Source: Sciscionella marina DSM 45152 (lineage in GTDB: Bacteria; Actinomycetota; Actinomycetes; Mycobacteriales; Pseudonocardiaceae). Taken from it: DNA of 64,000 nt. The notes beneath the pieces are model-generated. The model made no database searches. It worked only from the letters and a program-made list of their open reading frames with translations, and was not told the origin of the DNA. The translations under genes were made by a program, and so were the position numbers. Positions 19,912 to 41,649 of this stretch are shown here, in pieces. How positions within the stretch are numbered: position 1 is the stretch's first letter; each line of letters opens with the position of its first letter. The stretch lies in assembly GCF_000379465.1 (NCBI RefSeq), contig NZ_KB905403.1, positions 564,452-628,451 on the forward strand. The letters are read 5' to 3'.

Positions 19912-20174
19912 TCGATTCGCGGATCTCGAGCGCGGCGGGCAGCAGCACGGAATCGGTCGGCTCCTGACCGTCCAGCAGCTGCATCAACAGGGCGACGGTC
20001 TTGCGGGTCCCGGCCTCGAACGGGACCCGGACGGTGGTGATGGCCGGGCGCGTATTTCCGTTCCCCGGCCACGGTCCGGCGGTGTTCGGCGCAGATGTGC
20101 CCGGCCCACAGCGTGATCAGGTCATCGACCGGCTCCGCGCCGAGCTCGGTCAGCGCGGCGCGCAAGGGCGGCAT
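19889..20174 (-). pseudogene. Remnant of a LacI-family regulator
   Basis: Reading leftward, bases ~20052-19889 encode ITTVRVPFEAGTRKTVALL and then LLDGQEPTDSVLLPAALEIR ending in TTPRSAR and a stop. This is the characteristic C-terminus of LacI regulators. Bases 20174-~20060, in a different frame, read LRAALTELGAEPVDDLITL, which resembles an upstream segment of the same domain (inference). The HTH and most of the sensor are missing. The remnant's last 23 bases overlap the end of thyA. It is clearly non-functional. Confidence 0.6.
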
Positions 20175-20219
20175 GACTCTCCCCGCTCGACCGGGCGCTG
20201 CGCCGTGCCGCGGTTTCGC

Positions 20220-21020: not shown

Positions 21021-21101
21021 GCTTCGAGGTTCGCAGAGATCGGCGGTTCCGCTACCATTAACCGCCGTATTCGGCTGATAGTGCTGCACGATTACCCTTG
21101 T

Positions 21102-24479: not shown

Positions 24480-24491
24480 GAGTCGGCGGGG

Positions 24492-24669
24492 CAGGTGTGC
24501 TCTAGGAGTGCGTCTGATGACTCTCGTCCGTCGCGAGCGGGAGCCAGATCGGATGCATCGCAAGGCGGACGACGACAGCGCAGCGGCGCTGCGCGGGAGG
24601 AGGACAACGCCGCGAGGCGCCGATATGGCCCCGCGCAGCAGGACACGGAGCCATCAGGTGTGCTCTAGG
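24492..24669. repeat. 178-bp element bounded by direct CAGGTGTGCTCTAGG copies
   Basis: Exact 15-base copies lie at 24492-24506 and 24655-24669 (163-bp period). Internal blocks GAGTGCGTCTG (24506-24516), CTCTCGTCCGTCGC (24521-24534) and GGACACGGAG (24641-24650) recur in the same order at 26383-26440. A perfect hairpin, GCGCAGC-GGC-GCTGCGC, sits at 24578-24594. No reading frame is convincing. It ends 9 bp before the PucR gene. Confidence 0.7.
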
Positions 24670-24671
24670 CT
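24666..24671 (+). promoter_or_regulatory. Candidate -10 box of a leaderless PucR promoter
   Basis: TAGGCT matches the actinobacterial -10 pattern and ends six bases before the ATG at 24678. No Shine-Dalgarno is present, consistent with a leaderless transcript. The box overlaps the second CAGGTGTGCTCTAGG copy. Confidence 0.4.
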
Positions 24672-24677
24672 GTTCCG

Positions 24678-26303
24678 ATGGCCCGGGCGAGTCTGACGCG
24701 GATCCTCGACGACCTGGGCGGCACCCTGCTCGAAGTGGTGCACGGCGATCCGGACCGGGTCGGCGAGGTCGGCGGTGTGGTGATCCACGATGCGGTGGAG
24801 GAACCGGCGCTGCCCCCGGCCGCCGTGGTGCTCGGGGTCGGGCTGCGCGAACCCGCGGGGATCGCGGCCCTGCTCGACCGGCTGCGCGGCCGGGCGGGGG
24901 CACTGGTGATCCGTTCCCCGGTGCCCGCAGGGCAGCGGCTGCGCACCGCGGCGGCGGATGCGGGGGTCGTGCTGCTCGCGGTCGCGCGGGGCGCCTCCTG
25001 GATGCAGCTCGCCGCGCTGTTGCGCTCGGTGCTCACCGAGGACGGCATCCGCGTCGAGGACACCGAGACACTGGGCGGTTTCCCGGCCGGGGACCTGTTC
25101 TCCCTGGCGAACGCGATCGCGGCGCAGCTGGATGCCCCGGTCACCATCGAGGACCGGGGTTCCCGGGTGCTCGCGTTCTCCGGCCACCAGGAGGAAGCGG
25201 ACCAGTCCCGGGTGGAGACGGTGCTCGGCAGGCAGGTCCCGCAACGCTATTCGCAGCTGCTCACCGAGTCCGGGGTGTTCGACGAGCTCTATCGCAGCAG
25301 GCGGCCGGTCTACGTGGATTCCACCGGACTGGGCACGGAATCGATCACGATGCCGCGGGTGGCGATCGCGGTGCGCGCGGGTGCCGAACAGCTCGGCTCC
25401 ATCTGGGCCGCGGTGCACGGACCGCTTTCCGCCGAACGCGAGGCGGCGCTCACCGATGCCGCGAAGGTGGTGGCGCTGCACCTGCTGCGCATGCGGGCCG
25501 GGGCGGATGTGGGCCGCAGGCTGCGCGCGGACCTGCTGAGCACCGCGCTCGAGGGTGGCCCGGACGCGCACGCCGCGGTGGACCGGCTCGGGCTCGCCGG
25601 AACCCCGGTGATCGTGCTGGCGCTCGCGATGCGCGGCTCGCAGGAACCGAGTGGTTCGCTGAGCGAGGAGACCAGCAGGGAAACCGAACGCCAGCGGATC
25701 GCCGACGGCTTCGCGATGCATCTGGCCGCGATGCACCCGCGCAGTGCGGTCGCGCTGCTGGAGAACCACGCCTACGGGTTGCTCCCGGTGGACGGGGAGG
25801 ATAGCGATGCCGGGGAACGGGCCCTGCGGGTGGCCGGTGACTTTCTCGGCAGGCTCGGGGACCGCACCGATGCGGTGATCGGGATCGGTTCCTGCGCGCG
25901 CACCAGCGCGGAACTGGCCACCGCGCGGCACCGGGCGAGCCGGACGGTGCGGGCCTTGCGCGCGCACGAGGACGGTCCGCGGGCGGCCCGGTTCGCCGAG
26001 GTGCACGGGTGGATCCTGGTTTCCGAGCTGCGCGAACTCGCCATCGGACAGGGTGACCGGCCCAGCGGGGCGCTCGCCGTGCTGCGCGAGTACGACGAAC
26101 GGCACGGGGCGAGCCTGGTGCCCACCCTCGCGGCCTGGCTGGACGCGTTCGGGGATGTCGGCGCGGCCGCCGCGGCCCTGCACGTGCACCCGAACACCTT
26201 CCGTTACCGGTTGCGCAGGCTCACCGAGATCGGCGGCATCGATCTGGCCGATCCGGCGGACCGGTTCGCGGCCATGCTGGCACTGCGGGTGTTCAAGGAT
26301 TAG
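24678..26303 (+). CDS. PucR-family regulator of the D-amino-acid/peptide cluster
   Basis: 541 aa. N-terminal PucR-like sensor (TRILDDLGGTLLEVVHGDPD), a central CdaR/GGDEF-like region, and a C-terminal HTH with GDVGAAAAALHVHPNTFRYR (~490-510) followed by LTEIGGIDLADPADRFA. It is the first gene of a long unidirectional block. Shared repeat blocks occur directly upstream of it and again before the next gene, so it may autoregulate and control the catabolic operon from those sites. That link is inferred; the family assignment is firm. Confidence 0.9.
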   Translation: MARASLTRILDDLGGTLLEVVHGDPDRVGEVGGVVIHDAVEEPALPPAAVVLGVGLREPAGIAALLDRLRGRAGALVIRSPVPAGQRLRTAAADAGVVLLAVARGASWMQLAALLRSVLTEDGIRVEDTETLGGFPAGDLFSLANAIAAQLDAPVTIEDRGSRVLAFSGHQEEADQSRVETVLGRQVPQRYSQLLTESGVFDELYRSRRPVYVDSTGLGTESITMPRVAIAVRAGAEQLGSIWAAVHGPLSAEREAALTDAAKVVALHLLRMRAGADVGRRLRADLLSTALEGGPDAHAAVDRLGLAGTPVIVLALAMRGSQEPSGSLSEETSRETERQRIADGFAMHLAAMHPRSAVALLENHAYGLLPVDGEDSDAGERALRVAGDFLGRLGDRTDAVIGIGSCARTSAELATARHRASRTVRALRAHEDGPRAARFAEVHGWILVSELRELAIGQGDRPSGALAVLREYDERHGASLVPTLAAWLDAFGDVGAAAAALHVHPNTFRYRLRRLTEIGGIDLADPADRFAAMLALRVFKD

Positions 26304-26382
26304 ACGCTACGTCGGATCGCACGAAAGCCCGGTACCGATTTTGGCCGCGCGCACCGAAGCCCCGTGCCCGCTTGTCGCCCTA

Positions 26383-26440
26383 GAGTGCGTCTGCGAGCTC
26401 TCGTCCGTCGCAGCGGGACACGGAGTTCTCAGATGTGCTC
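26383..26440. repeat. Shortened second copy of the 24492-24669 repeat
   Basis: Contains GAGTGCGTCTG (26383-26393), CTCTCGTCCGTCGC (26398-26411), GGACACGGAG (26416-26425) and a TGTGCTC end, in the order found in the first copy but lacking ~105 bp of its middle. It lies 39 bp before the D-amino-acid dehydrogenase ATG. Confidence 0.65.
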
Positions 26441-26478
26441 CTGGGTTGACAGGCACGAACAGCGAACGGAGCTGGTGC

Positions 26479-27714
26479 ATGGGTCCACGCAAGGTCATCG
26501 TCATCGGTGCGGGCATGGTCGGGTTGTCCTGCGCCTGGTCGCTGCAGGAGTACGGCATCGAGGTGGAGGTGCTGGACAAGGCAGCGGCCGGGTCCGGGGC
26601 GTCCTGGGGTAACGCGGGGTATCTCGCCCCGGCCTTCACCGTTCCGCTCCCCGAACCCGCGATCCTGCGCTATGGGATCCGTGCCGTGCTCGACCGGCAC
26701 TCCCCGGTCCGGCTGCCCCCGCGCGCCGATCCGGAGTTGGCCCGGTTTCTGCTGCGGTTGAGCCGGAACTGCACCAGCGCGCACTGGACCCGAGCGATGG
26801 CCGGATACCGGGTGCTCAACGAGCGGATCTTCGAGTCCTTCGACGCGCAGCTCGCCGACGGGGTGCGCGGCGAGGTGCACTCCGCCGATGTGCTCGCCGC
26901 CTTCGCCGGGGCCGCCGAGGCGACCGGACTGCAGCACGAACTCGACGGAGTGGTCGCCAGTGGGCAGCAGGTCGATCTGGAACTGCTCACCGGGGAACAG
27001 GCCCGCAAGGCCGAACCCAATCTCTCCGGGCGGGTCGGGCTCGCGATGCGGGTGCGCGGGCAGCGTTACCTCGATCCGGTCGCCTATGCGGGCGCGCTCG
27101 CCGCGAGTGTGCGCGCCCGGGGTGGCACGATCACCGAACAGGTCCCGGTCTCGGCCGTCCGGCACTCCGCTGGGCGGATCCGGGTGCGGTGCGCCGATGG
27201 TGGCCGCGAGGCGGACGCGGTGGTGCTCGCCAGCGGTGCCTGGCTGCCGGAGCTGGCCGCCGCGCACGGAGTGCGGATGCCGCAATTCGGCGGGCGCGGG
27301 TACAGCTTCACGGTTGCCCTGCGCGAGCCGCTGCGCACTCCGTTGTATTTCCCCACGGCCAGAGTCGCGCTGGCCCCACGCGGGGACCGGGTGCGGATCG
27401 CGGGCGTGATGGAGTTCCAGCGGCCGGACGCCCCGCTGGACCCGGCGCGGATCACCGCCACCGTCCGGTCGCTGCGGCCGCTGCTCGCCGGTGCCGACTG
27501 GTCGGACATCCGGGACCAGTGGGTGGGTGCGCGGCCGTTGAGCGCGGACGGGATCCCGCTGGTCGGCCCTTCGGCCACCGAGGGCGTCTACATCGCGGGC
27601 GGGCACGGCATGTGGGGAGTCACCCTCGGCCCGCTCACCGGAAGACTGCTCGCCGAGCACATGGCCACCGGCGCCACCGGCCCCGAACTCGATTGGTTGC
27701 GCCCGACCCGCTGA
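26479..27714 (+). CDS. FAD-dependent D-amino-acid dehydrogenase (DadA-like)
   Basis: 411 aa from ATG 26479; the in-frame region upstream belongs to the PucR antisense/overlap zone. The FAD motif VIVIGAGMVGLSCAWSL (~6-22) is followed by GSGASWGNAGYLAPAFTVPL, a DadA hallmark. The C-terminal GHGMWGVTLGPLTGRLLAE is the usual flavin-closing segment. DadA-type enzymes oxidatively deaminate D-amino acids at the membrane, passing electrons to the respiratory chain. It opens the operon whose other products include a D-aminoacylase and an oligopeptide importer, so free D-amino acids are the probable substrate. Confidence 0.88.
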   Translation: MGPRKVIVIGAGMVGLSCAWSLQEYGIEVEVLDKAAAGSGASWGNAGYLAPAFTVPLPEPAILRYGIRAVLDRHSPVRLPPRADPELARFLLRLSRNCTSAHWTRAMAGYRVLNERIFESFDAQLADGVRGEVHSADVLAAFAGAAEATGLQHELDGVVASGQQVDLELLTGEQARKAEPNLSGRVGLAMRVRGQRYLDPVAYAGALAASVRARGGTITEQVPVSAVRHSAGRIRVRCADGGREADAVVLASGAWLPELAAAHGVRMPQFGGRGYSFTVALREPLRTPLYFPTARVALAPRGDRVRIAGVMEFQRPDAPLDPARITATVRSLRPLLAGADWSDIRDQWVGARPLSADGIPLVGPSATEGVYIAGGHGMWGVTLGPLTGRLLAEHMATGATGPELDWLRPTR

Positions 27715-27756
27715 GCCCGGCTCGCTGAGTAGGGCTCGAGATCAATGGAGATCGCG

Positions 27757-29013
27757 ATGCTACGAGAGCGTATCGAGACCGAGCCGAGCCCGGCGCGGGT
27801 GCGCCGGATCGGCCTGCTGACCGGTGTCGTGCTGCTGCTCGCCTACACGATCGACTACGTGGACCGGTTCGCGATCAGCATGGCGCTGCCCTCGATCGGC
27901 ACCGAGTTCGGGCTTTCCAAGACGGCACAAGGGCTTCTGGTCACGGTGTTCGCCGTGGTGTACATGCTCTGCCAGATCCCGGCCGGGGTGGTCGCCGACC
28001 GGTTCGGTGCCCGGATCCTGTTGCTGACCACGCTGTTGCTGTGGTCGGCGTTCACCATGTTCACGGCACTCGCCGGGACCTTCGCCCTACTGCTCGTACT
28101 GCGCGCCACATTCGGTGCCTCGCAGGGATTTTTTCCCGCGGCGAGCTTCAAGACGGTGGCCGAGCGCACCACCCCGGACAACCGTGGCACGGTCATGGGG
28201 CTGGTCATGTCCGCGAGCGGGATCGGCAGCGGGCTCACCCCGTTGCTCGCCGCCCCGCTGCTGATCGCCTTCGGCTGGCGCGGCACGTTCGGCTGGCTCG
28301 CCGCGGCGGGCGCGGTGCTCGGCATCCTGCTGTGGCTGCTGATTCCGCGCCGGCTGCCCGCGCGGATGTGCGAACTGTCCGCGCAGCCGCCGAAACCGAC
28401 CCCGGCCGCGCGGCGGGCGGTGCTGCGCTCCCCGCAGGTGTGGTTGTTCGCCGGACTGTTCTGCGCCAAGAACTTCGTGGTGTACGGGCTGATCACCTGG
28501 GTGCCGAGTTATCTGCAGGAGGCCGAACAGGTCTCCATCGGGCAGACCGGGGTACTGGCCGCGATCCCGGCGCTGATCGGGTTCGCCACCACGATCCTCG
28601 GCGGCTGGCTGTTCGACCGCTACTTCCGCACCCGCCCGCGCTGGTACCTGTTCGCCACCACGCTCACCTCGGCGATCCTGCTGGCTCCCATGGCCCTGGC
28701 GAACACCGCGGGCCAGTTCATCCTGTTCGAGGCGCTCGCGCTCGCGGTGGACGGGCTCGGTTCCATGGCGCTGTTCGGCCTGCCGATGCGGGTGTTCCCC
28801 ACCGCGCTGACCGGATCGGGGATGGGCGTGATCAACTTCGGCGGTCAGGTCGCGGGTGCCGCCGCGCCACTGCTGCTCGGCATGCTGGTGGACGGATTCT
28901 CCTACGCGGCCGCGTTCGGTCTGCTCGTGGTGGCCGGGCTGATCGGGGCCGGGCTCGCCGTGCGGATCCCGCAGCGTGCCGAGGATTTCAGTTTCGCGGT
29001 GAAGGGAGCCTGA
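27757..29013 (+). CDS. MFS transporter (anion/cation symporter-like)
   Basis: 418 aa from ATG 27757, preferred because GGAG lies six bases upstream; ATG 27745 is the alternative. About 12 membrane segments. The segment IDYVDRFAISMALPSIGTEF and the loop-2 motif GVVADRFGARILL (~70-82) are typical of the major facilitator superfamily. The DYxDR start resembles the anion:cation symporter group that carries organic acids. It lies between the D-amino-acid dehydrogenase and D-aminoacylase genes, so it may carry N-acyl or free D-amino acids. Its stop overlaps the next start (TGATG). Confidence 0.85.
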   Translation: MLRERIETEPSPARVRRIGLLTGVVLLLAYTIDYVDRFAISMALPSIGTEFGLSKTAQGLLVTVFAVVYMLCQIPAGVVADRFGARILLLTTLLLWSAFTMFTALAGTFALLLVLRATFGASQGFFPAASFKTVAERTTPDNRGTVMGLVMSASGIGSGLTPLLAAPLLIAFGWRGTFGWLAAAGAVLGILLWLLIPRRLPARMCELSAQPPKPTPAARRAVLRSPQVWLFAGLFCAKNFVVYGLITWVPSYLQEAEQVSIGQTGVLAAIPALIGFATTILGGWLFDRYFRTRPRWYLFATTLTSAILLAPMALANTAGQFILFEALALAVDGLGSMALFGLPMRVFPTALTGSGMGVINFGGQVAGAAAPLLLGMLVDGFSYAAAFGLLVVAGLIGAGLAVRIPQRAEDFSFAVKGA

Positions 29014-29894
29014 TGGAAGACGAGATCATCGCCCGCGCCGAACAGGTGGGGCTCCGGGTCCGGATGCACGCCCGCGCCATCGACGGGACCGGGAGTTTCG
29101 GGATCGGCGCGGACGAACCCGTGGTGACCGCCTCGGTGCTCAAGGTGCCGCTTGCCGTGGAACTCGCCGACCAGGCCGAGCGGGAGCACTGCGATCTCGC
29201 CGAGCAGATCACCGTGCCCGCCGGGCCGAAAGTGCCGTCCCCGTACGGATTGGCCACGTTCCGGCATCCGGTGACGCTGTCCCTGGACGCGCTGGCCACC
29301 CTGATGATCGGGATCAGCGACAACGTCGCCACCGATCTGGTGTTCGCGAAGATCGGCAAACCCGCCGTGCGCGCCCTGCTGGACCGGCTCGGCCTCGCGG
29401 GCACCGTGATCGAGCAGGACTGCGCCGAACTGCTCGGCACCATCGGCGAGGACCTCGGCTATGACTATACCGATGACGAGCGCGCCCTGACCGAGCTGAC
29501 TCCGGAACAACTGCGCGGCCTGCGTGCCCTGGATCCGGCACAGACCTGCCGCAGCACGGCGGCGGAGATGACCGCGCTGCTCGGCATGATCTGGCGGGAC
29601 GAAGCGGCGGGCCCCGGCGCCTGCGCGGATGTGCGCCGCTGGCTCGGATTGCAGGTGTGGCCGCACCGGCTGCGGTCCGGTTTCCACACCGACGAGGTGC
29701 GGATCAGCGGGAAAACCGGGACGCTGCCCACGATCCGCAATGAGGTCGGGGTCGTGGAATACGCCGACGGGGGCAGGTTCGCGGTCGCGGTGTTCACCGA
29801 GGCGGTCGATGCCCGTTCCCAGGCACCGGAACGGGACGCGTTCATCGGATTCGCCGCGGCACGGGCGATCGAGGTAGTGAGGAGCCAAGCATGA
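29013..29894 (+). CDS. Class A beta-lactamase-like serine hydrolase, cytosolic form
   Basis: 293 aa. All three active-site boxes of class A/penicillin-recognising enzymes are visible: S41-V-L-K44, S102-D-N104 and K234-T-G236. There is no signal peptide or lipobox, which is unusual for a resistance enzyme. A convincing omega-loop ExxLN is also lacking. A role as an intracellular D-peptidase or amidase for imported D-amino-acid peptides fits the context better than antibiotic resistance. It is coupled to MFS upstream (TGATG) and to the D-aminoacylase downstream (ATGA). Confidence 0.82.
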   Translation: MEDEIIARAEQVGLRVRMHARAIDGTGSFGIGADEPVVTASVLKVPLAVELADQAEREHCDLAEQITVPAGPKVPSPYGLATFRHPVTLSLDALATLMIGISDNVATDLVFAKIGKPAVRALLDRLGLAGTVIEQDCAELLGTIGEDLGYDYTDDERALTELTPEQLRGLRALDPAQTCRSTAAEMTALLGMIWRDEAAGPGACADVRRWLGLQVWPHRLRSGFHTDEVRISGKTGTLPTIRNEVGVVEYADGGRFAVAVFTEAVDARSQAPERDAFIGFAAARAIEVVRSQA

Positions 29895-31354
29895 ACGAGA
29901 ACGTACTGCTGCGCGGCGGTCAGGTGTGCGATCCGGGAACGGGGACCACGCGCACGGCCGATCTGCTGGTCCGCGATGGCCGGGTGGCCGAGATCGGGAC
30001 GGATCTTCCCGTGCCCGAGGATGTTCCGGTGCTCGACGTGACCGGGCTCGTTGTCGGGCCGGGATTCATCGATCTGCACAGCCATGTGGACTCCATCGCC
30101 GGGCAGCGACTGCAGGCCATGGACGGGGTGTGCGCGACCCTGGAACTGGAAGCGGGCGCGGCGCGGGTGGAAACCGCGTACGCCGCGGCCGCGCGGGACG
30201 GGCGCCCGCTGCACTACGGGTACGCCGCGTCCTGGGCCGGTGCCCGGTTCGCGGCCCACACCGGCGCGGACCCGGACGACATCCTCGGCGTGCTCGGCGC
30301 ACCGGAATGGCAGCGATCCTCCACCCCGAGCGAGCGGGCGACCTGGCTGAACAGGCTGGAGACCGAACTCGCCGCGGGCGGGCTCGGGATCGGCATTCTG
30401 CTCGGCTACGCGCCGCGCACCGATCCGGCGGAATTCCTCGATGTGGCACGGCTTGCCGCGAATGCGGGAGCGCCGACCTTCACCCATGTCCGCGAACTGG
30501 TGGAGGCCGACCCGACCACCCCGGTGGACGGTTCGAGCGAGATCGCGATGGCCGCGGCGGAAACCGGTGCGGCCATGCACCACTGCCACGTGAACAGCAC
30601 CTCGCGCAGGCACATCGACCGGGTGCTGTCTACTTTGGACTCTTCGCGATCCGCGGGTTCCCCGGTCACCGTCGAGGCGTACCCCTATGGCGCGGGTTCC
30701 ACCGCGATCGGCGCGTTCTTCCTTTCCCCGGACCGGCTGCCCGCCTGGGGCATGAGCCCCTCGGATCTGGTGCTGGTGGACACCGGGGAGCGGATCGCCG
30801 ATGCGGCGCGACTGAACGAGGTGCGCGCGAACGATCCGGGCGCGCCGTGCATCGTGCACTATCTGGACGAGCGCGCCGAGGCCGATCGTGCGCTGCTGCG
30901 GCACGCGCTCGCCTTCGAGGACAGCATCGTGGCCAGCGACGCGATGTTCGTCAGCTGGCCCGACGGCAGCAGGGAGAGCACCGAGTGGCCGCTGCCCGCC
31001 GGTGGGCGCACCCATCCGCGCACCGCGGGCACGTTCAGCAAATCTCTGCGCCTGATGGTGCGCGAACAGGGCGCGTGGACCTGGCTGGAGGCCTTCCGCC
31101 GGTGCTCCTATCTGCCCGCGCGGGTGCTGGACCGGGTGTGCGCCACGGCGAGCGGGAAGGGGCACCTCGGGATCGGCGCGGATGCCGACATCGTGGTGCT
31201 CGATCCGGAAACCCTCACCGACCGCGCCACGTTCGCCGATCCCACGCGTACCGCTCAGGGTGTGCGGCATCTGCTGGTGGACGGCACCTTCGTGGTGCGG
31301 GACGGTGAACTGCGCGCGGACGTGTTCCCCGGACGGGCATTACGCGGTCACTGA
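29891..31354 (+). CDS. N-acyl-D-amino-acid deacylase-like amidohydrolase
   Basis: 487 aa, amidohydrolase superfamily. The metal motif H63-S-H65-VD follows VVGPGFIDL, and a late GHLGIGADADIVVLDPETL segment matches D-aminoacylase/D-hydantoinase-type enzymes. THVRE and HHCHVNS supply further candidate metal ligands. It hydrolyses N-acyl-D-amino acids or D-glutamyl-type peptides to free D-amino acids, which the DadA-like enzyme could oxidise. Start overlaps the previous stop by ATGA. A dihydroorotase-like or isoaspartyl dipeptidase-like activity cannot be excluded. Confidence 0.85.
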   Translation: MNENVLLRGGQVCDPGTGTTRTADLLVRDGRVAEIGTDLPVPEDVPVLDVTGLVVGPGFIDLHSHVDSIAGQRLQAMDGVCATLELEAGAARVETAYAAAARDGRPLHYGYAASWAGARFAAHTGADPDDILGVLGAPEWQRSSTPSERATWLNRLETELAAGGLGIGILLGYAPRTDPAEFLDVARLAANAGAPTFTHVRELVEADPTTPVDGSSEIAMAAAETGAAMHHCHVNSTSRRHIDRVLSTLDSSRSAGSPVTVEAYPYGAGSTAIGAFFLSPDRLPAWGMSPSDLVLVDTGERIADAARLNEVRANDPGAPCIVHYLDERAEADRALLRHALAFEDSIVASDAMFVSWPDGSRESTEWPLPAGGRTHPRTAGTFSKSLRLMVREQGAWTWLEAFRRCSYLPARVLDRVCATASGKGHLGIGADADIVVLDPETLTDRATFADPTRTAQGVRHLLVDGTFVVRDGELRADVFPGRALRGH

Positions 31355-31396
31355 ACCGAAACCAGGGCTCAGCCGAATTTCAGGAAGGGGCAAGGG

Positions 31397-34300: not shown

Positions 34301-34561
34301 GTCTACGAACGGGCCGCGCTGCGCTTCGAGGTTTTCCGGCAGGACAACGGATTGCGCGCTACGTACACAACATCCGCGGTCGGTTCGCTCGGGGAACCCG
34401 AACCACCGCGCGAGTTCGCCCTGGTGCCCTGCGCGCAGGACGCCTATCTGATCCGGGAACCACGCACCCGGGAATGGCAGCGGGTGCGGTTCTTCCGGCT
34501 CGCCGACGGCACCGCCTACGTGCATTTCGGGTTGCGTGCCACGCCCAAGGTCCGGCCGTGA
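31397..34561 (+). CDS. S9 prolyl-oligopeptidase fused to a class C beta-lactamase-like domain
   Basis: 1054 aa from ATG 31397 with GGAAGGGG upstream. Residues ~1-380 form the beta-propeller (repeated SPDG/HPDG motifs). Residues ~390-610 are the S9 catalytic domain with triad S476 (GYSYGG), D549 (HGLADQR) and H581. From ~610 a second enzyme begins: S672-I-T-K675, Y757-C-N759 and H893-D-G895 are the three boxes of class C beta-lactamase/D-aminopeptidase-type hydrolases. A ~110-residue C-terminal beta domain follows, as in DmpB/Pab87-type peptidases. There is no signal peptide. One chain thus combines an L-oligopeptidase with a probable D-specific peptidase. The fusion is in frame with no stop or shift. 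Confidence 0.9.
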   Translation: MSIFDIADIAGIEQPIDLTLSPDGSTVVYVLRTADTEADENVHELWSVGADGTPPRRIGEGTDPAISPDGETLVFLRQNQLWTMPMHGGAPEQLTDRPLGAGPAVWHPDGRKLAFTAAFDFRGGTAHSPIVTTAAVHKIDGGARFRGVYGQLFLLDLDSAETTMLTGGEFEVHAPVWSPDGSELAYLRGFAEDTPTARAYVLDPRDPAAPHRLVPGPVSVSALAWHGTDLLLVGEPEPGVRNAVLTRVDSEGDASVLTAELDRAVLPGAVGYPGASPAVLGEQVLYCVRDRGCTHLYRDGEPLLAGEHVVSGLSVSGGSIAVVVADPRHSGEIGVIDPETGRLRLLTEHTPDRCVPIVPVERTFTVHDGVQVHGWLVRDPEQREPGPLLLDVHGGPHNAWHPALDPAHLYHQVLAARGWSVLLLNPRGSDGYGEEFLRAGIGAWGTADERDFLDPVDQLVAEGLADPRRLALCGYSYGGFMACWLSTRTERFAAVVTGGVVCDLDLLRDTSDIGEWFYEQEIGSAKAQSPIQHIDRVSSPTLVLHGLADQRCIHAHAELWYSGLRRRGVRTELVSYPEASHLFILDGRPTQRIDYNRRILNWVTRHTGTRVRGGADPDYWQRRLAALVESHGVVGASLGIAVGDEISTAAAGLLHTGTGAAARTGSLFQIGSITKVYTATVLMRLVERGELGLDEPIERYVPGIAEGVTVRHLLTHTSGIDGDLFHDTGRGDDCLERYTAKLAEAARIHPIGETFSYCNAGFSLLARIAEVCTGKVWDELFGELLLEPLGLEHTVLLPEQVLRFDAAMGHVTGRDGKLAPAPQWHLPRAVAPAGAICATAEDVLRFARGQVLRQETAELMRSEQAELPDASRADAWGLGWWRNIWDGTRLIGHDGNTVGQSAFLRVLPEADIAVTLLTNGGEANPLAHELFTEIFGKFAGITPPEPVRPPEQGSVDNGTGEPADWHLGVYERAALRFEVFRQDNGLRATYTTSAVGSLGEPEPPREFALVPCAQDAYLIREPRTREWQRVRFFRLADGTAYVHFGLRATPKVRP

Positions 34562-36060
34562 AACGCGCCGCGGTGGCACTCGCGCTGCTGCCGCTGCTCG
34601 CCGGTTGCGCGGTCGGGGCGCACACCGGCGGGGACACGATCACCATCGCCATGCCCGCGGGGTCGGCGAAGTTCGACCCGCAGGCTTCCTCCTCCTCGAT
34701 CAATATGGCGCTGGTCCCGCTCGCCTACCAGAAGCTGGCCAGCACGAACCCCGATCACACCCTGGCCCCTGACGTGGCCAGCGGCTGGACGGTCAGCCCG
34801 ACCAGTGCGCGGCTGCGCATCCGGGACGGAGTGCGCTGCGCGGACGGGGAAACCCTCGATGCGGCAACGGTGGCGGCGAACCTGAACTATGTCGCTGATC
34901 CGGCGAACAAATCCGAACTGCTCGACGTCGCCGTCCCCTCGGGAGCCGAGGCAAGCGCGCACGGCAAGGAAGTGGACGTCCGGCTCGCCGCCCCGGAACC
35001 ATTCTTCATGCAGAACGTAACGATGCTGGGATTGGTGTGCCACAAGGGAATGCGCGATCGTGCGGCGCTGAACAAGCACAGTGAAGGGTCCGGGCCCTAT
35101 GTGCTCACCGAAGTCGCGCCCGGGGATCACCTCGGCTACACCAAGCGGCCCGGTCAACCGGAACGGCTGCCGCGCAGCATCGTGGTGAAGTTCGTCAATG
35201 ACGAGACCACCATGGCGAACCTGCTGCTCGGCCGCCAGGCCAATATCGCCGGTATCCGCGGACCGGACCGGGACCGGCTCGCCGCGGCGAAACTCTTCCG
35301 GCGCAACACTCCGGAGACGGTCGGTGAGCTCTACTTCAACCAGGGCAAGAAGACCTTCGCCGATGTGCGGGTGCGCCGGGCACTGGCCATGGGGGCGCGG
35401 TTCGACAACGCGGCCAAGGCGATCACCATGGGCGAGGGGCGGCGATCCACCGGACTGATGCCGGACCCGAAGCTCTGCCCCGGCGACAATGCGCGTGCGC
35501 TGCCCGGCTACGACCCCGCGCGGGCGCGTGCCCTCCTGGACGAGGCGGGCTGGCGGACCGGTCCGGACGGGGTGCGCGCCAAGAACGGCACGCCGCTTTC
35601 CTTCTCGCTGAAGTTCCCGCCGCTTGGCGCGGCGGCCGCGGAATACCTCGCGCAGCAGTGGCGTGCGATCGGCGTTACCGTCCGGCTCGAACAGCGCACC
35701 ACCGAACAGCTGCTCGCCAGCATGATGGGCGCCGGGGACTGGGACACGGCGTTCGAGAACGTGAACGTCACCAACCCGTCGACCATCCGCGCCTTCCTCT
35801 CCGGACCGGCCCCGCCGGACGGCTCGAATTTCGCGCACATCGAGAATCCGGGCTATGTGGCAGGGATGCGGGCGGCCAGTCAGCGCACCGGGACGGCGGG
35901 CTGTGCCGACTGGAACGCCGCGGAGACCGCGCTGTTCCGGAACGCCGATGTACTACCGTTCGCGGATTCGAGCACCCCGTCGTTCGGTGCCGGGGCGCGG
36001 TTCGAGCTGGACGGCAACGGAGCCTTCGTGCCGACCGCGTTCCACCGGGGCACGTCATGA
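34558..36060 (+). CDS. Peptide ABC transporter substrate-binding lipoprotein
   Basis: 500 aa from GTG 34558, overlapping the previous stop (GTGA). The N-terminus is a lipoprotein signal, with lipobox LLAGC and the modified residue C17. It belongs to extracellular solute-binding protein family 5 (dipeptide/oligopeptide/nickel): PLAYQKLAS, LAPDVASGWTVSP, SEGSGPYVLTEV, ELYFNQGKKTFADVRVRRAL. It captures the peptide outside the membrane and delivers it to the permeases encoded directly downstream. Confidence 0.93.
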   Translation: MKRAAVALALLPLLAGCAVGAHTGGDTITIAMPAGSAKFDPQASSSSINMALVPLAYQKLASTNPDHTLAPDVASGWTVSPTSARLRIRDGVRCADGETLDAATVAANLNYVADPANKSELLDVAVPSGAEASAHGKEVDVRLAAPEPFFMQNVTMLGLVCHKGMRDRAALNKHSEGSGPYVLTEVAPGDHLGYTKRPGQPERLPRSIVVKFVNDETTMANLLLGRQANIAGIRGPDRDRLAAAKLFRRNTPETVGELYFNQGKKTFADVRVRRALAMGARFDNAAKAITMGEGRRSTGLMPDPKLCPGDNARALPGYDPARARALLDEAGWRTGPDGVRAKNGTPLSFSLKFPPLGAAAAEYLAQQWRAIGVTVRLEQRTTEQLLASMMGAGDWDTAFENVNVTNPSTIRAFLSGPAPPDGSNFAHIENPGYVAGMRAASQRTGTAGCADWNAAETALFRNADVLPFADSSTPSFGAGARFELDGNGAFVPTAFHRGTS

Positions 36061-37004
36061 ACCACTGGCTGGTTTTCGCGGCACGCAGGCTGTTCCGGTT
36101 CGTGGTTTCGCTGTTCGTGCTCGCCGTGGCCACCTTCGCCATGGTGCACGCCATCCCCGGTGATCCGGTGCGGGTCGCGCTGGGACTCAAGGCACCGGCG
36201 GCGCTCGTCACGGCGAAACGGCACGATCTGGGCCTCGATCTGCCGCTGCCGCAACAGTTCCTCGACTATTTGCAGCGACTGTGCACCGGACGGCTCGGCA
36301 GTTCGCTGATCTCCGGTCTGCCGGTGCGCCGGTTGCTCAGTGAACAGCTGCCCGCGACCGCGCAGCTGGCCTGCTATGCCTTTCTGCTCGCGGTACTGCT
36401 CGCGGTGCCGCTCGGCATGTTCGTCGGGGTGCGCACGCGCAACGGCCGGGCGCGCGGCACCGAGGCCGGTTTCGTCACGGTGACCGGGTTTTTCTCGGTG
36501 ATACCGGATTTCCTGCTCGCCGTGGGATTGGTGTTCGTGTTCGCGGTGACGCTCGGCTGGTTCCCGCCCGCCGGTCTGGCCAGCCCGGTGGCGTTCGTGC
36601 TTCCGGTGCTCGCGCTCGCCGCGGCACCGGGTGCGCTGTTGTCCCGGATCGTACGGGTGGAGACCAGGCGGGTGCTCGATGCCCCGTATCTGCGCACCGC
36701 GCGCGCGAAACGGCTGCCGGACCGGCTGCTGTACCTGCGGCACGCACTGCCCAATCTGCTCACCTCGACGCTGACCATGAGCGGGCTGATCCTCGGTTCG
36801 CTGCTGGCCGGGACGGTGCTGGTGGAGAACATCTTCGCGATCCCGGGGGTCGGCATGCAGCTGGTGCAATCGGTGCTGAACAAGGATTATCCGGTGGTGC
36901 AGGCCCTGGCCATCGTGTTCGGTGGTGCCGCATTGCTGATCCACCTCGTCGTGGACATCGCCATCGCGGCCGCCGATCCGCGTTCCACGATCAGGGAGCG
37001 CTGA
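36057..37004 (+). CDS. Peptide ABC transporter permease (DppB/OppB-like)
   Basis: 315 aa, six membrane segments. The N-terminus RRLFRFVVSLFVLAVATFAM and HAIPGDPVRVALG are typical of DppB-type permeases. The EAA-like loop YLRTARAKRLPDRLLYLRHA precedes the last two helices, and VENIFAIPGVGMQLVQSV is a family signature. It overlaps the binding-protein gene (ATGA) and ends one base before the next gene. It pairs with the permease domain of the following fusion protein. Confidence 0.93.
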   Translation: MNHWLVFAARRLFRFVVSLFVLAVATFAMVHAIPGDPVRVALGLKAPAALVTAKRHDLGLDLPLPQQFLDYLQRLCTGRLGSSLISGLPVRRLLSEQLPATAQLACYAFLLAVLLAVPLGMFVGVRTRNGRARGTEAGFVTVTGFFSVIPDFLLAVGLVFVFAVTLGWFPPAGLASPVAFVLPVLALAAAPGALLSRIVRVETRRVLDAPYLRTARAKRLPDRLLYLRHALPNLLTSTLTMSGLILGSLLAGTVLVENIFAIPGVGMQLVQSVLNKDYPVVQALAIVFGGAALLIHLVVDIAIAAADPRSTIRER

Positions 37005-37005
37005 G

Positions 37006-38820
37006 ATGCGCCAGCTGACTCGCCCACTCGGGCTCACCACCCTCGTACTGGTCAGCGTGACCCTGCTGCTCGCGGTGTTCGGCCCCGTGCTGTGGTCGGC
37101 GCGCGCGGATTCGATCGATATCGACGCGATGCGCCAGGGAATGTCGGCGGCGCACCCGTTCGGCACCGACTATCTCGGCCGCGATGTGCTGGCCAGAACC
37201 CTGGTGGCCACCCGGCTTTCGGTGCTGCTGGCGCTGCTGGCCACGGTGCTCGGGGCGGCGCTCGGCATCCTGCTCGGTACGCTGCCGGTCGTGCTCGGCA
37301 GGCGGATCGGCGGGCTCGTGGTGGCGTTCATCAACCTCACCGTGGCCTTTCCCGGCCTGCTGCTGGCGATCTTTTTCGGCGTGGTGTTCGGGGTCGGCGC
37401 GGACGGTGCGGTGCTCGCGCTCGCGGTGGCCCTGACGCCCAACTTCGCCCGGTTGACCTATACCAGGGCGGTAGCGGTGGCCGAGGCGGATTTCGTGTCC
37501 GCGGCGCGATTGCTCGGGGTGCCGCGCGCTGTGGTGATCACCAGGCATGTGGTGCCGAACATCGCCGAGCCACTGGTGGTGAACTTCGCCTCGGCGATCG
37601 GCAGCGCACTGCTCAGTTTCGCGGCGCTGTCCTATCTCGGTTTCGGGGTGCAGCCGCCCTCGTACGACTGGGGTCGGCTGTTGAACGAGGGCCTGCCGCG
37701 GATCTACACCGACCCGGCCTCGGCGCTGCTTCCCGGCTTCGCGATCGTGTTCGCCGGGATCACCTTCGTACTGGCCGGTGAACTGACCGCCCGGCTGCTG
37801 ACCGCGGAACCGCCCGGTCATCGCGCGGCGCCGCGGGAAACCGCCGCACCCGGGGAACCGGAACCCGGCGGGGAACACGGCGTGCTGCGAGTGGTGAACC
37901 TGCGGGTGCGGTTCCCCGCCGCGAACCCGGTATGCGGCGCCAGCTTCACCCTGCACCGTGGAGAAATCCTCGGCCTAGTCGGGGAATCCGGCTCCGGGAA
38001 GAGCGTCACCGGTGCCGCCATCGCCGGTCTGGTACCGCATCCCGGACAGGTCGAGGCCGAGCGGCTGGAGTTCGACGGCGAACCGCTCGATCCCGCCCGG
38101 CTCGGCGACCGGCTGGCCATGGTGTTCCAGGATCCGATGAGTTCGCTGAACCCGGCGCTGCGGGTGGGCAGGCAGCTCGCCGAGGTCGCCGAGGTGCACC
38201 GGAACGCCGATCGCCGCTCCGCCATGGCCCGTGCGGTGGATCGGCTGCGTGCGGTGCGCATCCGGGATCCGGAACGCCGGGCCGCGCAGTATCCGCACGA
38301 GTTCTCCGGCGGAATGCGGCAGCGTGCGATGATCGGCATGGGGCTGATGGGCGAGCCGAGGCTGATCATCGCCGACGAGCCGACCACGGCACTGGATGTC
38401 ACCGTGCAGCGGGACATTCTCGGCCTGCTCCGCGAGGTGCGCGATACCCAGGGGACCGCGGTGCTGTTCGTCAGCCACGACATCGCCGTGGTGCGTGAGC
38501 TGGCCTCCCGGGTGCTGGTGATGTACGCCGGGCGGATCGTCGAGGAACTGCCCGCGAGCGCGCTGGACACGGCGGCGCACCCGTACACCAGGGCACTGGT
38601 GGCCAGCTCCCCGGATCTGCGCACCGACCGTTCGCTGCCGCTGGCCACGATCGAGGGCCGGGCGCCGGATGCCACCGAGGAGCTGCCCGGCTGTCCGTTC
38701 GCGCCGCGTTGCTCCTACGCCGACGAGCGCTGTCACACCGAGCTCCCCGCGCCGCGGGACCTCGCCGGGCACCGGGTGAGCTGCTGGCATCCCATCGGGG
38801 CACTGGAGGTCAGGGCATGA
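37006..38820 (+). CDS. Peptide ABC transporter permease-ATPase fusion (DppC-DppD-like)
   Basis: 604 aa. Residues ~1-270 are a DppC-type permease: HPFGTDYLGRDVLARTL, EAA loop ADFVSAARLLGVPRAVVITR, SYLGFGVQPPSYDWGRLL. After a ~25-residue Pro/Glu-rich linker, residues ~290-604 are a DppD-type ATPase with Walker A GESGSGKS (326-333), signature FSGGMRQ (433-439), Walker B IIADEP with D457/E458, and the C-terminal CPFAPRCSYADERC motif of peptide importers. Permease and ATPase are normally separate proteins; here a single unbroken frame joins them. Overlaps the next gene by ATGA. Confidence 0.92.
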   Translation: MRQLTRPLGLTTLVLVSVTLLLAVFGPVLWSARADSIDIDAMRQGMSAAHPFGTDYLGRDVLARTLVATRLSVLLALLATVLGAALGILLGTLPVVLGRRIGGLVVAFINLTVAFPGLLLAIFFGVVFGVGADGAVLALAVALTPNFARLTYTRAVAVAEADFVSAARLLGVPRAVVITRHVVPNIAEPLVVNFASAIGSALLSFAALSYLGFGVQPPSYDWGRLLNEGLPRIYTDPASALLPGFAIVFAGITFVLAGELTARLLTAEPPGHRAAPRETAAPGEPEPGGEHGVLRVVNLRVRFPAANPVCGASFTLHRGEILGLVGESGSGKSVTGAAIAGLVPHPGQVEAERLEFDGEPLDPARLGDRLAMVFQDPMSSLNPALRVGRQLAEVAEVHRNADRRSAMARAVDRLRAVRIRDPERRAAQYPHEFSGGMRQRAMIGMGLMGEPRLIIADEPTTALDVTVQRDILGLLREVRDTQGTAVLFVSHDIAVVRELASRVLVMYAGRIVEELPASALDTAAHPYTRALVASSPDLRTDRSLPLATIEGRAPDATEELPGCPFAPRCSYADERCHTELPAPRDLAGHRVSCWHPIGALEVRA

Positions 38821-39533
38821 GTGAACTCACGGTGGACGGGTTGACCGTGCGGTTCGGCGCGCACACCGCGGTCGACGGGGTCAGCCTCGCCGTCCCCGCG
38901 GGTTCGGTGCTCGGCCTCGCGGGCGAGTCCGGGTCCGGCAAGTCCACGATCGCGCGCGCCATCGTCGGGATGGCACCGATCAGCTCCGGGAGTGTCCGCT
39001 ACGACGGGACGCCACTGCGCACCCCGGACCGCCGGATCCAGCTGGTGTTCCAGGATCCGGCCGCGGCACTGGATCCGCGGCGCAGCATCGGCTCGTCCAT
39101 CGCGGAAGGCGTGCGCGCCAAGCGAACCGCGCGCCGCGCCCGGGTACGCGAGCTACTGGAACTGGTGCACATCGATCCCGCGCGGGCGAACCTGAACCCG
39201 CGCGAGTTCTCCGGAGGACAGCTGCAGCGGGTGTGCCTCGCGCGCGCCCTCGCGGCCGAACCGGAGTTCCTGATCGCCGATGAGATCACCTCGGCGCTGG
39301 ACGTCTCGGTGCAGGGCGCCGTGCTGAACGTGGTGCGGGAAATACAACGGGAGACCGGGATCGGGATCCTGTTCATCAGCCACAATCTCGCCGTGCTGCG
39401 CTACCTCGCGGACACCATGGCCGTGCTGCGCGCCGGAAAGCTGGTCGAACAGGCGGAGACCGAAACCCTGCTCGGCGCGCCGGAACACGAGTACACCAAG
39501 CAGTTGATCGACGCCGTTCCCGGACAGGAATAG
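38817..39533 (+). CDS. Peptide ABC transporter ATPase (DppF-like, short form)
   Basis: 238 aa. Walker A GESGSGKS (36-43), Q-loop LVFQDPAAALDPRR, signature FSGGQLQRVCLARAL, Walker B FLIADEITSALD, H-loop FISHNLAV. It is shorter than usual DppF/OppF (~320 aa), ending straight after the core ATPase without the Cys-containing peptide-importer tail. It presumably forms a heterodimer with the ATPase half of the preceding fusion. Confidence 0.93.
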   Translation: MSELTVDGLTVRFGAHTAVDGVSLAVPAGSVLGLAGESGSGKSTIARAIVGMAPISSGSVRYDGTPLRTPDRRIQLVFQDPAAALDPRRSIGSSIAEGVRAKRTARRARVRELLELVHIDPARANLNPREFSGGQLQRVCLARALAAEPEFLIADEITSALDVSVQGAVLNVVREIQRETGIGILFISHNLAVLRYLADTMAVLRAGKLVEQAETETLLGAPEHEYTKQLIDAVPGQE

Positions 39534-39534
39534 G

Positions 39535-41079
39535 GTGAGAACCGTGTCCTACGAAACCTTGCGCGTGTCCATCGCGGACGAACTGGACGCGTTCTTCGCG
39601 CAGTACACCGCCGCCGGGCAGGCCAAGGGGCTCGTCTACGGGTTCAGCGATACACGCGGGCTGGTGCACTCGGCCGGATTCGGCGTGGCAGACGAGGCGG
39701 GCACGGTCCCGGACGCGGACACCCTGTTCCCCATCGCCTCGATGTCGAAGAGTTTCATCGCCTGCGCGGCGCTGCTCGCCAGGGACCGCGGTGTGCTGTC
39801 CCTGGAAGACCCGATCACCAAGTATATTCCGGAGTTCCGCGCGAGCGCCGCGCCGGAGGACCCGTGCGAACCGCCGAGCATCGGGATGCTGCTCGCCATG
39901 CGCGGCGGGCTCACCGAGGACAATTCCTGGGTGGACCCGTTCATCGGCATGCCCGAGCGGGAACTGCTCGAACTTGTCGGCAAGGGTGTCCGGTACAGCA
40001 ACCTGCCCGGCACCGTGTTCGAATACTCCAACCTCGGCTATACGCTCGCCGCGATCGCGGTCGGCCGCGCGGTGGGCAACCCGATCACCGATTTCGTGCG
40101 GGACGAGGTGATCGCGCCACTCGGCCTGGCTTCGACCTGTTTCGACAGCGCGGCACCGGAACGACGCGCGGTCGGTTATTCGCTCGACGCGCACGGCGAC
40201 TGGGTGCCGTATCCGCCGAACATCTCGGACGGGTTCGCCGGGGCGGGTGGCATCATGAGCACCGTCCGGGACATCGCGGGCTGGATGACCTGGCTGGGTG
40301 CGGCGTTCCGCCCGCAGTCCGGCAAGGATCGAATACTCGGCAGGGCGGCGCGCCGGGATATGCAGCGGCTGCACAGTATCGCGCGCCCGGCCGTCGTGCT
40401 GCGTCCGGACGGCGGGCTGCACGCCGGGCTCGGCGGATACGGTCTCGGGCTGAGCATCGAGGAGGATCCGCGCTGGGGCACCGTGGTCTCGCACGGCGGC
40501 GGACTGCCCGGGTTCAAGCTGTTCATGTGCTGGCATCCGGATTCCGGGCACGGTGTCACCGTGCTCACCAACAGCCACCGCGGCGATCCCGCCGCGCTGT
40601 GCACCGAGGCACTGCAGCGCATCCTGACGCGGGAGAAGGCACCGGCGCGGACCGTCACGCTGTGGCCGGAAACCGAACGGCTGCGCGCCGAGGCGGATCG
40701 CCTGGTGCGGGACTGGGACGAGGAACTGGCCGCACGGATCTTCGCGGAGAACGTCGACTTCGACCGCCCGCTCGCGGAACGCCGCGCCGAGGTCGCCGAA
40801 CTCATCGCGGAGATCGGCCCGCTCGCCGATGCGCCTGCCGCGGTGGTCTCCACCTCCAGCCCGGCCGATGTGACCTGGTCGATCCCCGGCGAGCGCGGCG
40901 AACTGCTGTGCATGATCCACCTGACCCCGGTCGATCCCGCGCGGATCCAGGAATTCGAGGTGCGTGCCGTGCCCGCGCACCGGCCACGCGCGGCGGCTCC
41001 GGTGGACATCTCCCCGCGGCGCACCCGGCTCGGTGACGCGTTCATCGGCCCACCACGAGACATCCTGCTCCGGGGCTGA
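39535..41079 (+). CDS. Class C beta-lactamase-family serine hydrolase / D-aminopeptidase-like
   Basis: 514 aa from GTG 39535; GTG 39544 is a close alternative with GGGTGAG upstream. Active-site boxes: S69-M-S-K72, a YSN tyrosine box in FEYSNLGYTL, and SHGGGLPGF as the third box. A ~150-residue C-terminal extension follows. No signal peptide, so probably cytosolic. It begins two bases after the ABC ATPase stop and closes the cluster; it is the third penicillin-recognising-fold hydrolase of the run. D-aminopeptidase or D-Ala-D-Ala-type dipeptide cleavage is inferred from context. Confidence 0.85.
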   Translation: MRTVSYETLRVSIADELDAFFAQYTAAGQAKGLVYGFSDTRGLVHSAGFGVADEAGTVPDADTLFPIASMSKSFIACAALLARDRGVLSLEDPITKYIPEFRASAAPEDPCEPPSIGMLLAMRGGLTEDNSWVDPFIGMPERELLELVGKGVRYSNLPGTVFEYSNLGYTLAAIAVGRAVGNPITDFVRDEVIAPLGLASTCFDSAAPERRAVGYSLDAHGDWVPYPPNISDGFAGAGGIMSTVRDIAGWMTWLGAAFRPQSGKDRILGRAARRDMQRLHSIARPAVVLRPDGGLHAGLGGYGLGLSIEEDPRWGTVVSHGGGLPGFKLFMCWHPDSGHGVTVLTNSHRGDPAALCTEALQRILTREKAPARTVTLWPETERLRAEADRLVRDWDEELAARIFAENVDFDRPLAERRAEVAELIAEIGPLADAPAAVVSTSSPADVTWSIPGERGELLCMIHLTPVDPARIQEFEVRAVPAHRPRAAAPVDISPRRTRLGDAFIGPPRDILLRG

Positions 41080-41649
41080 ATTATCTCACCGGCTCGTCTT
41101 GCTGGTGGGCATGTGGGTGACGGATTTCGTGGCGCGTCTTCGGGCCGAGCACCTGCCGGGCGACCGCGATGGCCGCGGCCAGTTCCGTCAGTTCCGCGTC
41201 CGGCACGTCCCCTGCTTTCGCGCACACCGGTCGTTCCCTGGGATTGCTGTCGTGCGCCCGGGCCGGGACGCGGTCGCCGCGTGCAGGATGTTGCACTGGA
41301 TCCGGCCGAGTTCCCCGCACCCGGCGGACCGGCCGTGCCGGTCACCACGATTCCCTGCTGCGCCGGTCCAATGGACAACGGCACGTATCGCGGGCGCGCG
41401 CCCCTGCCGACCTGGGAACCGAGCCCCGCCGTGCGGCTCGCGGAGCCGGAGTAGCGCCGCCAACCGCCATGAGTCTCGGCCCGCTCCGCCTTTGGGAGCG
41501 GTGGGGTACCCCGTCAGGTGCACCTTTGCATTGCGGCCTTGCGCACTTCCGATGGACCGATCCTGCCCGATCAGGCGTACCGTGCACCCGGAGTCTCGGT
41601 GTTAAGTACGTTTCGTGTCTGTCTGGTCGGAACGCCGCTTGGAGGTCCG
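41080..41649. other. 570-bp gap before the AfsR-type gene
   Basis: No gene is supported. Short frames exist on both strands, for example the reverse-strand 41081-41320 with a plausible DAELTELAAAIAVARQVLG helix and the + strand 41113-41454 ending in AVRLAEPE. None has an RBS plus a recognisable family; they may be decayed remnants. GGAGG at 41641-41645 is the RBS of the next gene. Confidence 0.5.

Follow-up and report, generated by a model that had tools for sequence, protein, structure and literature searches.

A candidate D-peptide catabolic cluster in Sciscionella marina and its relatives in Actinomycetota with alternative D-amino-acid-handling genes

The window analysed here is a 64,000-nucleotide stretch of Sciscionella marina DSM 45152 (family Pseudonocardiaceae), part of contig C24 (NZ_KB905403.1) of an 8.5 Mb genome. 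Within it lies a cluster of eleven genes, labelled A to K below, that may serve the uptake and breakdown of D-amino-acid-containing peptides. The genes occupy positions 24678-41079, all on the + strand, and Pfam and NCBI models recovered the domains that an earlier reading of the same DNA (the original prediction) had named. Their order is PucR regulator, D-amino acid oxidase (DAO) family gene, MFS carrier, class A-fold hydrolase, D-aminoacylase-like gene, S9-class C fusion, solute-binding protein (SBP), permease, permease-ATPase fusion, second ATPase and second class C hydrolase:

A, 24678..26303, + strand: PucR-family regulator, 541 aa (PF13556, 81.5 bits; PucR helix-turn-helix)
B, 26479..27714, + strand: DAO/DadA-like FAD oxidoreductase, 411 aa (PF01266, 193 bits)
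C, 27745..29013, + strand: MFS carrier, 422 aa (PF07690, 196 bits)
D, 29013..29894, + strand: class A-fold serine hydrolase, 293 aa (PF13354, Beta-lactamase2, 174 bits)
E, 29891..31354, + strand: D-aminoacylase-like amidohydrolase, 487 aa (NF006560, 598 bits, cut-off 340)
F, 31397..34561, + strand: fusion of S9 peptidase and class C (S12-type) hydrolase, 1054 aa (PF00326, 139 bits; PF00144, 228 bits)
G, 34558..36060, + strand: SBP_bac_5 solute-binding protein, 500 aa (PF00496, 159 bits)
H, 36057..37004, + strand: permease, 315 aa (PF00528, 86.5 bits)
I, 37006..38820, + strand: permease-ATPase fusion, 604 aa (PF00528, PF00005 and oligo_HPY)
J, 38817..39533, + strand: second ATPase, 238 aa (PF00005, 101.5 bits)
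K, 39535..41079, + strand: second class C hydrolase, 511-514 aa with two possible GTG starts (PF00144, 181 bits)

From A to K the successive junction gaps measure 175, 30, -1, -4, 42, -4, -4, 1, -4 and 1 bases. The claim that most junctions are ATGA/GTGA overlaps is too strong, as four-base overlaps occur at 4 of the 10 junctions and overlaps of any length at 5. Judged by these gaps, B to K look like a single transcription unit. The PucR gene may be carried on a separate transcript, because the 175-bp interval between it and the DAO gene holds part of a dispersed repeat. This repeat, of about 190 bp, lies upstream of the PucR gene at window 24490-24679, with a partial second copy downstream at about 26384-26430; the first copy has 54 further matches, mostly partial, across the host genome.

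The S9 part of the fusion protein F has a Ser-Asp-His set (S476, D549, H581) and a fold closest to the S9 carboxypeptidase 8wt1 (best Foldseek match; TM 0.84 by target length) and the Deinococcus S9 peptidase. The class C half presents the S-x-x-K, Y-x-N and H-x-G motifs as SITK, YCN and HDG. Its solved relatives are 7spn at 202 bits, which carries no name beyond IS11, Pab87 at 107 (2qmi), an alkaline D-peptidase at 80 (4y7p) and a D-alanyl-D-alanine carboxypeptidase at 76 (1cef). Across 110 fused copies, which were not de-duplicated and include some clusters twice, S476, H581, S672, K675, Y757, N759, H893 and G895 are unchanged in all and D549 is kept in 109. The predicted model of F is of moderate quality (pLDDT 78.6, pTM 0.62) and of low confidence at 717-758, a segment that holds Y757, so the geometry of the model was left unused. 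The S9 half is found alone in L056, L057, L058, L066 and L073 (L-labels denote loci, and G-labels the genomes compared); in all of these but L066 its neighbour is a stand-alone class C gene, so the fusion has unfused counterparts.

Genes G to J make up the importer. G is probably a lipoprotein, judging by eye from the LAGC near its N-terminus; among solved structures it comes nearest to binding proteins for nickel and for peptides, which do not indicate its ligand. Homologues of I that score over 90 bits are fused in 96 of 96 cases (not de-duplicated), while L056 and L073 carry weaker, unfused homologues.

To gather relatives of F, 84,980 species genomes were scanned with a pattern, which yielded 416 stretches and, at tblastn 1e-3, 401 relatives, the best 80 of which are referred to here as the named loci. 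These were found by F alone, with flanks of up to 10 kb and partner matches counted over 90 bits. In a search of 200 family genomes F matched at E 1e-60 in 83, many through one half only; matches over almost its full length of 1054 residues number 51, from 46 genomes. Pooling the named loci with loci picked from the family search, and de-duplicating, gave 106 distinct F sequences from Actinomycetota, for which the partner counts are lower bounds given flanks of mostly no more than 10 kb. The sample is weighted towards Pseudonocardiaceae and the 80 top-scoring loci, loci related to one another do not count as independent, and partner genes outside the reference set were annotated with Pfam only in part. 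Since loci ended at 10-20 kb or at contig ends, absences of partners are soft, the genome-wide GNAT search described below excepted.

Hosts of the named loci include Amycolatopsis, Lentzea, Kribbella, Streptomyces, Nocardia, Nocardioides, Jiangella, Catellatospora, Rhodococcus and Arthrobacter, among others. In a neighbourhood search with F, as the original prediction had proposed, a permease-ATPase gene lies within about 10 kb in 71 of the 80 named loci and an SBP gene in 70. These frequencies, together with the near-invariant catalytic residues of F, indicate that the gene set is more than a chance grouping. The partners that come next in frequency are a GNAT gene (53), an N-succinylamino acid racemase (NSAR) gene (52), an M20 gene (49), PucR (46) and the class A hydrolase (39), followed by MFS (12) and an M19 dipeptidase (11). 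E is present in 6 (one at 97%, five at 28-30%), and DAO in 1 by BLAST or 2 after a DAO profile was applied. The NSAR, GNAT and M20 genes (hereafter the trio) all fall within the flank in 44 named loci; 8 have NSAR and GNAT without M20, 4 have M20 alone, 1 has GNAT and M20 without NSAR, and 21 have none of the three and no DAO. Among the 106 distinct F sequences the importer is nearby in 84, at least one trio member in 80, GNAT in 72, NSAR in 70, M20 in 66, a PucR homologue over 90 bits in 66 and DAO in 3. In Nocardia panacis (L088, 4588-14868) the class A hydrolase and F follow immediately on genes for uricase, an amidohydrolase and allantoicase, with an MFS gene on their other side.

The genes that would deal with the released D-amino acids differ between these loci, and two of the solutions do not meet: NSAR and DAO occur together in 0 of the 106 distinct F loci. 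The same holds when the search is anchored on E. Matches to E at at least 60% in 297 genomes gave a list of 39, of which 29 loci were examined, and these carry NSAR in 16 cases, DAO in 4, neither in 9 and both in none. By domain annotation, none of the eleven Sciscionella genes is an NSAR, GNAT or M20 gene. At genome scale, a GNAT profile (E 0.001) found no match in 4 of 4 genomes with a B-type DAO, the Sciscionella host included, and all 10 NSAR-type genomes that served as positive controls matched it at 1e-132 or better; G106, G044, G272 and G113 supplied seeds of the profile, and the remaining six positive genomes are independent. An NSAR pathway in the window itself was accordingly rejected as a candidate, the cluster having no trio and the genome no GNAT match.

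In Amycolatopsis azurea (G106, L082), one minus-strand run of about 20 kb joins both halves in the order E, M20, GNAT, NSAR, PucR, MFS, class A, class C, class A, SBP, permease, permease-ATPase, ATPase and F. The trio adjoins PucR in A. azurea, whereas in Sciscionella a single DAO gene lies between PucR and MFS and the trio is absent. Homologues of C at 54-58% adjoin the class A gene in Amycolatopsis-type clusters. PucR, DAO, MFS, class A and E recur at 72-83% in G208 (L160, just before a contig end), and PucR, E and MFS stand together with a 50% DAO in G081 (L176).

Further endings were met beside F. Amycolatopsis sp. NBRC 101858 carries two loci. One (L124) is of NSAR type; in the other (L126) the genes after F encode a DAO-family protein with 28% identity to B, a PF01042 protein that we take to belong to the Rid family, and a distant D-aminoacylase. 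The L126 DAO gene was missed by the BLAST screen and found by Pfam and then by the DAO profile; its profile score is circular, as the sequence is among the profile seeds, and the 28% identity is unaffected. This DAO and Rid-family case is independent of the Sciscionella DAO. In G130 (L055, 9024-11516) a class C hydrolase is fused to a pyridoxal phosphate (PLP) enzyme near F, the importer and a PucR gene, the PLP part scoring 329 bits where the diaminopropionate ammonia-lyase cut-off is 276. In Arthrobacter sp. 35W (L139, 15288-17051) GNAT-like and NSAR parts share one 587-aa frame beside F and PucR; the GNAT part is seen by BLAST only, Pfam finds the enolase domain alone, and the NSAR model gives 178 bits under a cut-off of 200.65.

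On the E tree, the more carefully made of the two trees, four DAO-type E proteins form one branch (100/100) inside a 22-row group and a fifth, distant one (L176) is placed elsewhere, so the DAO label needs two changes. On the F tree (FastTree only) Sciscionella F groups with that of Nocardia uniformis, which is NSAR-type, and that of N. panacis, with support of 99. Some 'none' labels on this tree are a flank artefact, as with A. azurea, so labelled because its trio lies just beyond 10 kb.

A scores 117 bits with the AdeR model, far under the cut-off of 700. B belongs to the DAO fold family and gives 190 bits with the D-amino acid dehydrogenase model NF001933 (cut-off 383); it is found at at least 70% identity in 3 of the 200 family genomes, while relatives from the DAO family with about 36-52% occur widely and 109 of the 200 match at 1e-60. 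The model that E meets, NF006560, carries only the NCBI name 'amidohydrolase family protein'. Within the PDB the best match of E is N-acyl-D-glutamate deacylase (3gip, 92 bits), and D-aminoacylase (1m7j) gives 71 bits. H63, H65, E87, H199, H230, H233 and D350 of E do not vary among the 30 sequences that score over 250 bits, one cluster being counted twice.

D has the motifs SVLK (41-44), SDN (102-104) and KTG (234-236). Its predicted model is confident (pLDDT 91.6) and closest in fold to BlaB (2wuq), then to a Sphaerobacter beta-lactamase and PBP-A. In an alignment of 29 close homologues with 40 of 47 more distant ones, the omega-loop region that holds Glu166 in lactamases reads QDCAELL in D, with C137 conserved, and shows no Glu common to close and distant homologues (alignment only). 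A beta-lactamase identity for D was rejected on a bla_class_A score of 66 bits against a curated cut-off of 200, with the aligned omega-loop region probably counting against it too; for F and K it was rejected because the bla_class_C model gives 65 and 49 bits, far under its cut-off of 415. K presents its three motifs as SMSK, YSN and HGG, has Pab87 (2qmi, 76.6 bits) as nearest solved structure, and has a BLAST match over 90 bits in only one of the 80 named loci, that of another Sciscionella. The original prediction that D, F and K lack signal peptides stands in so far as N-terminal hydropathy, its sole basis here in place of a dedicated predictor, gives no export signal.

Around the cluster, window 17142-18290 encodes another class C-family hydrolase (201 bits), 20001-22070 a 689-aa frame with two AsnC-type helix-turn-helix stretches, and 23709-24479, after that frame, an EspG-family gene. 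A large BTAD/NB-ARC/TPR regulator (41518-44607) lies directly downstream. Elsewhere on C24, at L063 8061-10327, an off-cluster NSAR homologue sits beside an M20 gene and an MFS gene.

From these observations we infer the activities, direction of transport, substrates and regulation set out here, as would be the case for any statement on which ending came first. The Opp importer G-J would bring in peptides, and the MFS carrier C probably handles smaller compounds, either N-acyl amino acids or free ones. Once in the cytoplasm, the peptides would be trimmed by F through its S9 carboxypeptidase-like and S12-type active sites, enzymes of the S12 type often acting on D-residues, with D and K as putative further penicillin-fold peptidases or amidases. 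E would then strip N-acyl groups off D-amino acids, and B would oxidise the free D-amino acid to a 2-oxo acid and ammonia. For most relatives the predicted ending is different: the D-amino acid would be N-acylated, racemised by NSAR and deacylated, giving the L-amino acid.

Several described systems resemble parts of this scheme. Bacillus subtilis dpp/ykf and E. coli ddp pair a peptide importer with enzymes cleaving D-peptides or L,D-peptides, the enzymes being of the DppA, VanX-type and LD-carboxypeptidase/epimerase families; these families are absent among the eleven window genes. An NSAR-based D-to-L pathway was reportedly described by Sakai in 2006 in Geobacillus kaustophilus. NSAR, GNAT and M20 are carried by most F relatives, whereas the Sciscionella cluster lacks all three and has a DAO-family gene in their place. 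The combined use of NSAR and L-succinylase is noted in the excerpted text of PMC7431475. The dbu operon of Pseudomonas putida, as portrayed in excerpts of PMC12724383, has genes for D-amino acid oxidase, a transporter and a Rid protein together, and is in part echoed at L126 by DAO and Rid-family genes. The dbu operon differs in concerning free D-branched-chain amino acids, in having an XRE regulator rather than PucR and in a Rid gene that the window cluster lacks, and the same excerpts make no mention of a peptide importer or peptidases.

The closest precedent is the neighbourhood of Pab87, a CubicO (S12) enzyme of Pyrococcus abyssi that, according to the excerpted text of PMC2651629, degrades D-residue peptides and lies near genes for a D-aminoacylase and a dipeptide ABC importer, for which its authors propose use of environmental D-peptides. 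On the same text, the two loci share an S12-type enzyme, a D-aminoacylase or D-aminoacylase-like gene and an ABC importer, and the 2qmi matches of F and K add to the likeness. The view that no such operon had been described thus needs correcting on this point. The Pyrococcus locus differs in that the excerpts mention no S9 fusion, class A hydrolase, DAO or NSAR there, and two of the three CubicO motifs given in the paper are missing from F and K, neither of which has YAE (YAE-x) or a C-terminal ERY.

Taken together, the data are best read as an operon, controlled by PucR, for the catabolism of N-acyl-D-amino acids and of peptides that contain D-amino acids, to which we would give a probability of roughly 0.72 on the evidence of sequence. 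Import and intracellular breakdown of D-residue peptides, as originally proposed, remains the best reading since importer and F are kept while the D-handling enzymes differ; two D-amino-acid pathways alternating around constant peptidases are what this reading predicts, and neither beta-lactam resistance nor plain L-peptide use predicts such alternation. Conservation of only a subset of the genes beside unrelated ones had been named as a finding against the prediction. On this point the outcome is mixed: a subset is indeed conserved, but the commonest replacement for DAO is the functionally matched NSAR pathway, with 33 of 106 F loci having neither.

A number of observations pull the other way. 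Those 33 loci, many read only to 10 kb, include some that look truly different, such as the N. panacis locus beside a urate-degradation set. The nearest solved relatives of B are glycine oxidases (best 73 bits), and among the models shown no curated one names B a D-amino acid dehydrogenase over its cut-off. Canonical D-aminoacylases have a Cys metal ligand within GNCG; in E this region reads LELEAG with the invariant E87, and of five distant relatives shown three have GNCG and two GEG/GEA. The specificity of E is insecure because Glu replaces the GNCG motif. The host carries two off-cluster NSAR homologues (63-64%), one beside an M20 gene, and in G081, whose DAO set is distant, the GNAT profile gives a single weak match (3e-23). 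A sensor role is possible for D, since its best match BlaB is named a regulatory protein. Finally, E occurs without F or the trio in several loci (L169, L170, L173), and DAO, class A and E at 84-86%, with MFS nearby, occur in G018 (L159), a genome with no F match. The last two findings suggest that the cluster consists of two separable halves, one for acyl-D-amino acids (MFS, class A, E and DAO or trio) and one for peptides (importer and F).

Peptidoglycan scavenging or recycling, with stem peptides specifically as substrates, overlaps with D-peptide catabolism in general and is a narrower version of it that we hold as possible but tentative. Stem peptides are common environmental D-peptides. 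In its favour also, Pab87 takes the C-terminal Ala off a muropeptide, as the excerpted text of PMC2651629 relates. By domain annotation, however, the eleven genes include no muramyl amidase, glucosaminidase or L,D-carboxypeptidase (for the relatives, Pfam annotation covered only some partner genes), and the relatives' racemase fits the NSAR/o-succinylbenzoate synthase (OSBS) model (302 bits) far better than L-Ala-D/L-Glu epimerase models (54-65 bits).

It is unlikely that the locus serves general scavenging of L-peptides or N-acyl-L-amino acids, with the D-related enzymes incidental. Opp importers and S9 peptidases do commonly serve L-peptides, but B, E and the S12 fold argue for D-residues, NSAR, GNAT and M20 make sense together as a D-to-L route, and two unlike D-handling sets alternate while the importer and F stay constant. 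A role in beta-lactam handling, in which D, F and K would hydrolyse or sense imported or opened beta-lactams and PucR with the BlaB-like D would form a sensor circuit, is less probable still. BlaB, a named beta-lactamase regulatory protein, is the closest solved relative of D by sequence as well as fold, and many class A and class C lactamase models match cluster proteins weakly. The scores given above for D, F and K nevertheless fall far under the cut-offs, the Glu166 region of D is not conserved in the alignment, D, F and K show no export signal by hydropathy, and the NSAR, GNAT, M20, DAO, D-aminoacylase and Rid partners would be left unexplained. That the host protects itself against, or turns over, non-ribosomal peptides of its own making is the most improbable option: Amycolatopsis, Lentzea and Streptomyces, to which many named hosts belong, are producer genera, but the eleven genes and annotated partners include no biosynthetic gene (no systematic search being made), the locus is also present in Kribbella, Nocardioides, Jiangella, Rhodococcus and Arthrobacter, and the ABC genes are of importer type rather than exporter type.

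Returning to D-peptide catabolism, the balance of the comparisons leans towards a shared D-peptide-utilisation locus in Actinomycetota, built from an importer with a permease-ATPase fusion, the S9-S12 double peptidase and PucR, and closed by an interchangeable terminal module. This module would be NSAR/GNAT/M20, a DAO (recruited at least twice, once with Rid) or the diaminopropionate ammonia-lyase-class C fusion of L055. A search of the open-licence PMC literature returned no description of a shared F-importer locus, which is a weak negative.

The comparisons also touch on a characterised Amycolatopsis enzyme, 1sja, which a cluster NSAR matches at 644 bits and that of another genus at 611, while one off-cluster Sciscionella homologue is less close at 521. 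Amycolatopsis NSARs racemise N-succinyl amino acids in vitro at rates tabulated in the excerpted part of PMC8142540, and the 1sja-type enzyme, first called a racemase, was later judged an OSBS (PMC4215206, in excerpt). The setting of the cluster homologues favours a racemase role, because these 1sja-like NSARs sit among peptide importer and peptidase genes; the gene surroundings of 1sja itself lie outside this comparison.

If the interchangeable module is real, the locus would provide a physiological setting for this much-studied NSAR/OSBS enzyme, and so bears on the standing question of whether the Amycolatopsis N-acylamino acid racemase/o-succinylbenzoate synthase is a racemase in the cell. 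More broadly, cell walls and natural products are rich in D-amino acids, and the mineralisation of peptides containing them by soil and sediment bacteria is poorly mapped. One conserved locus with alternative endings would offer matched strains in which D-to-L inversion and oxidation could be compared.

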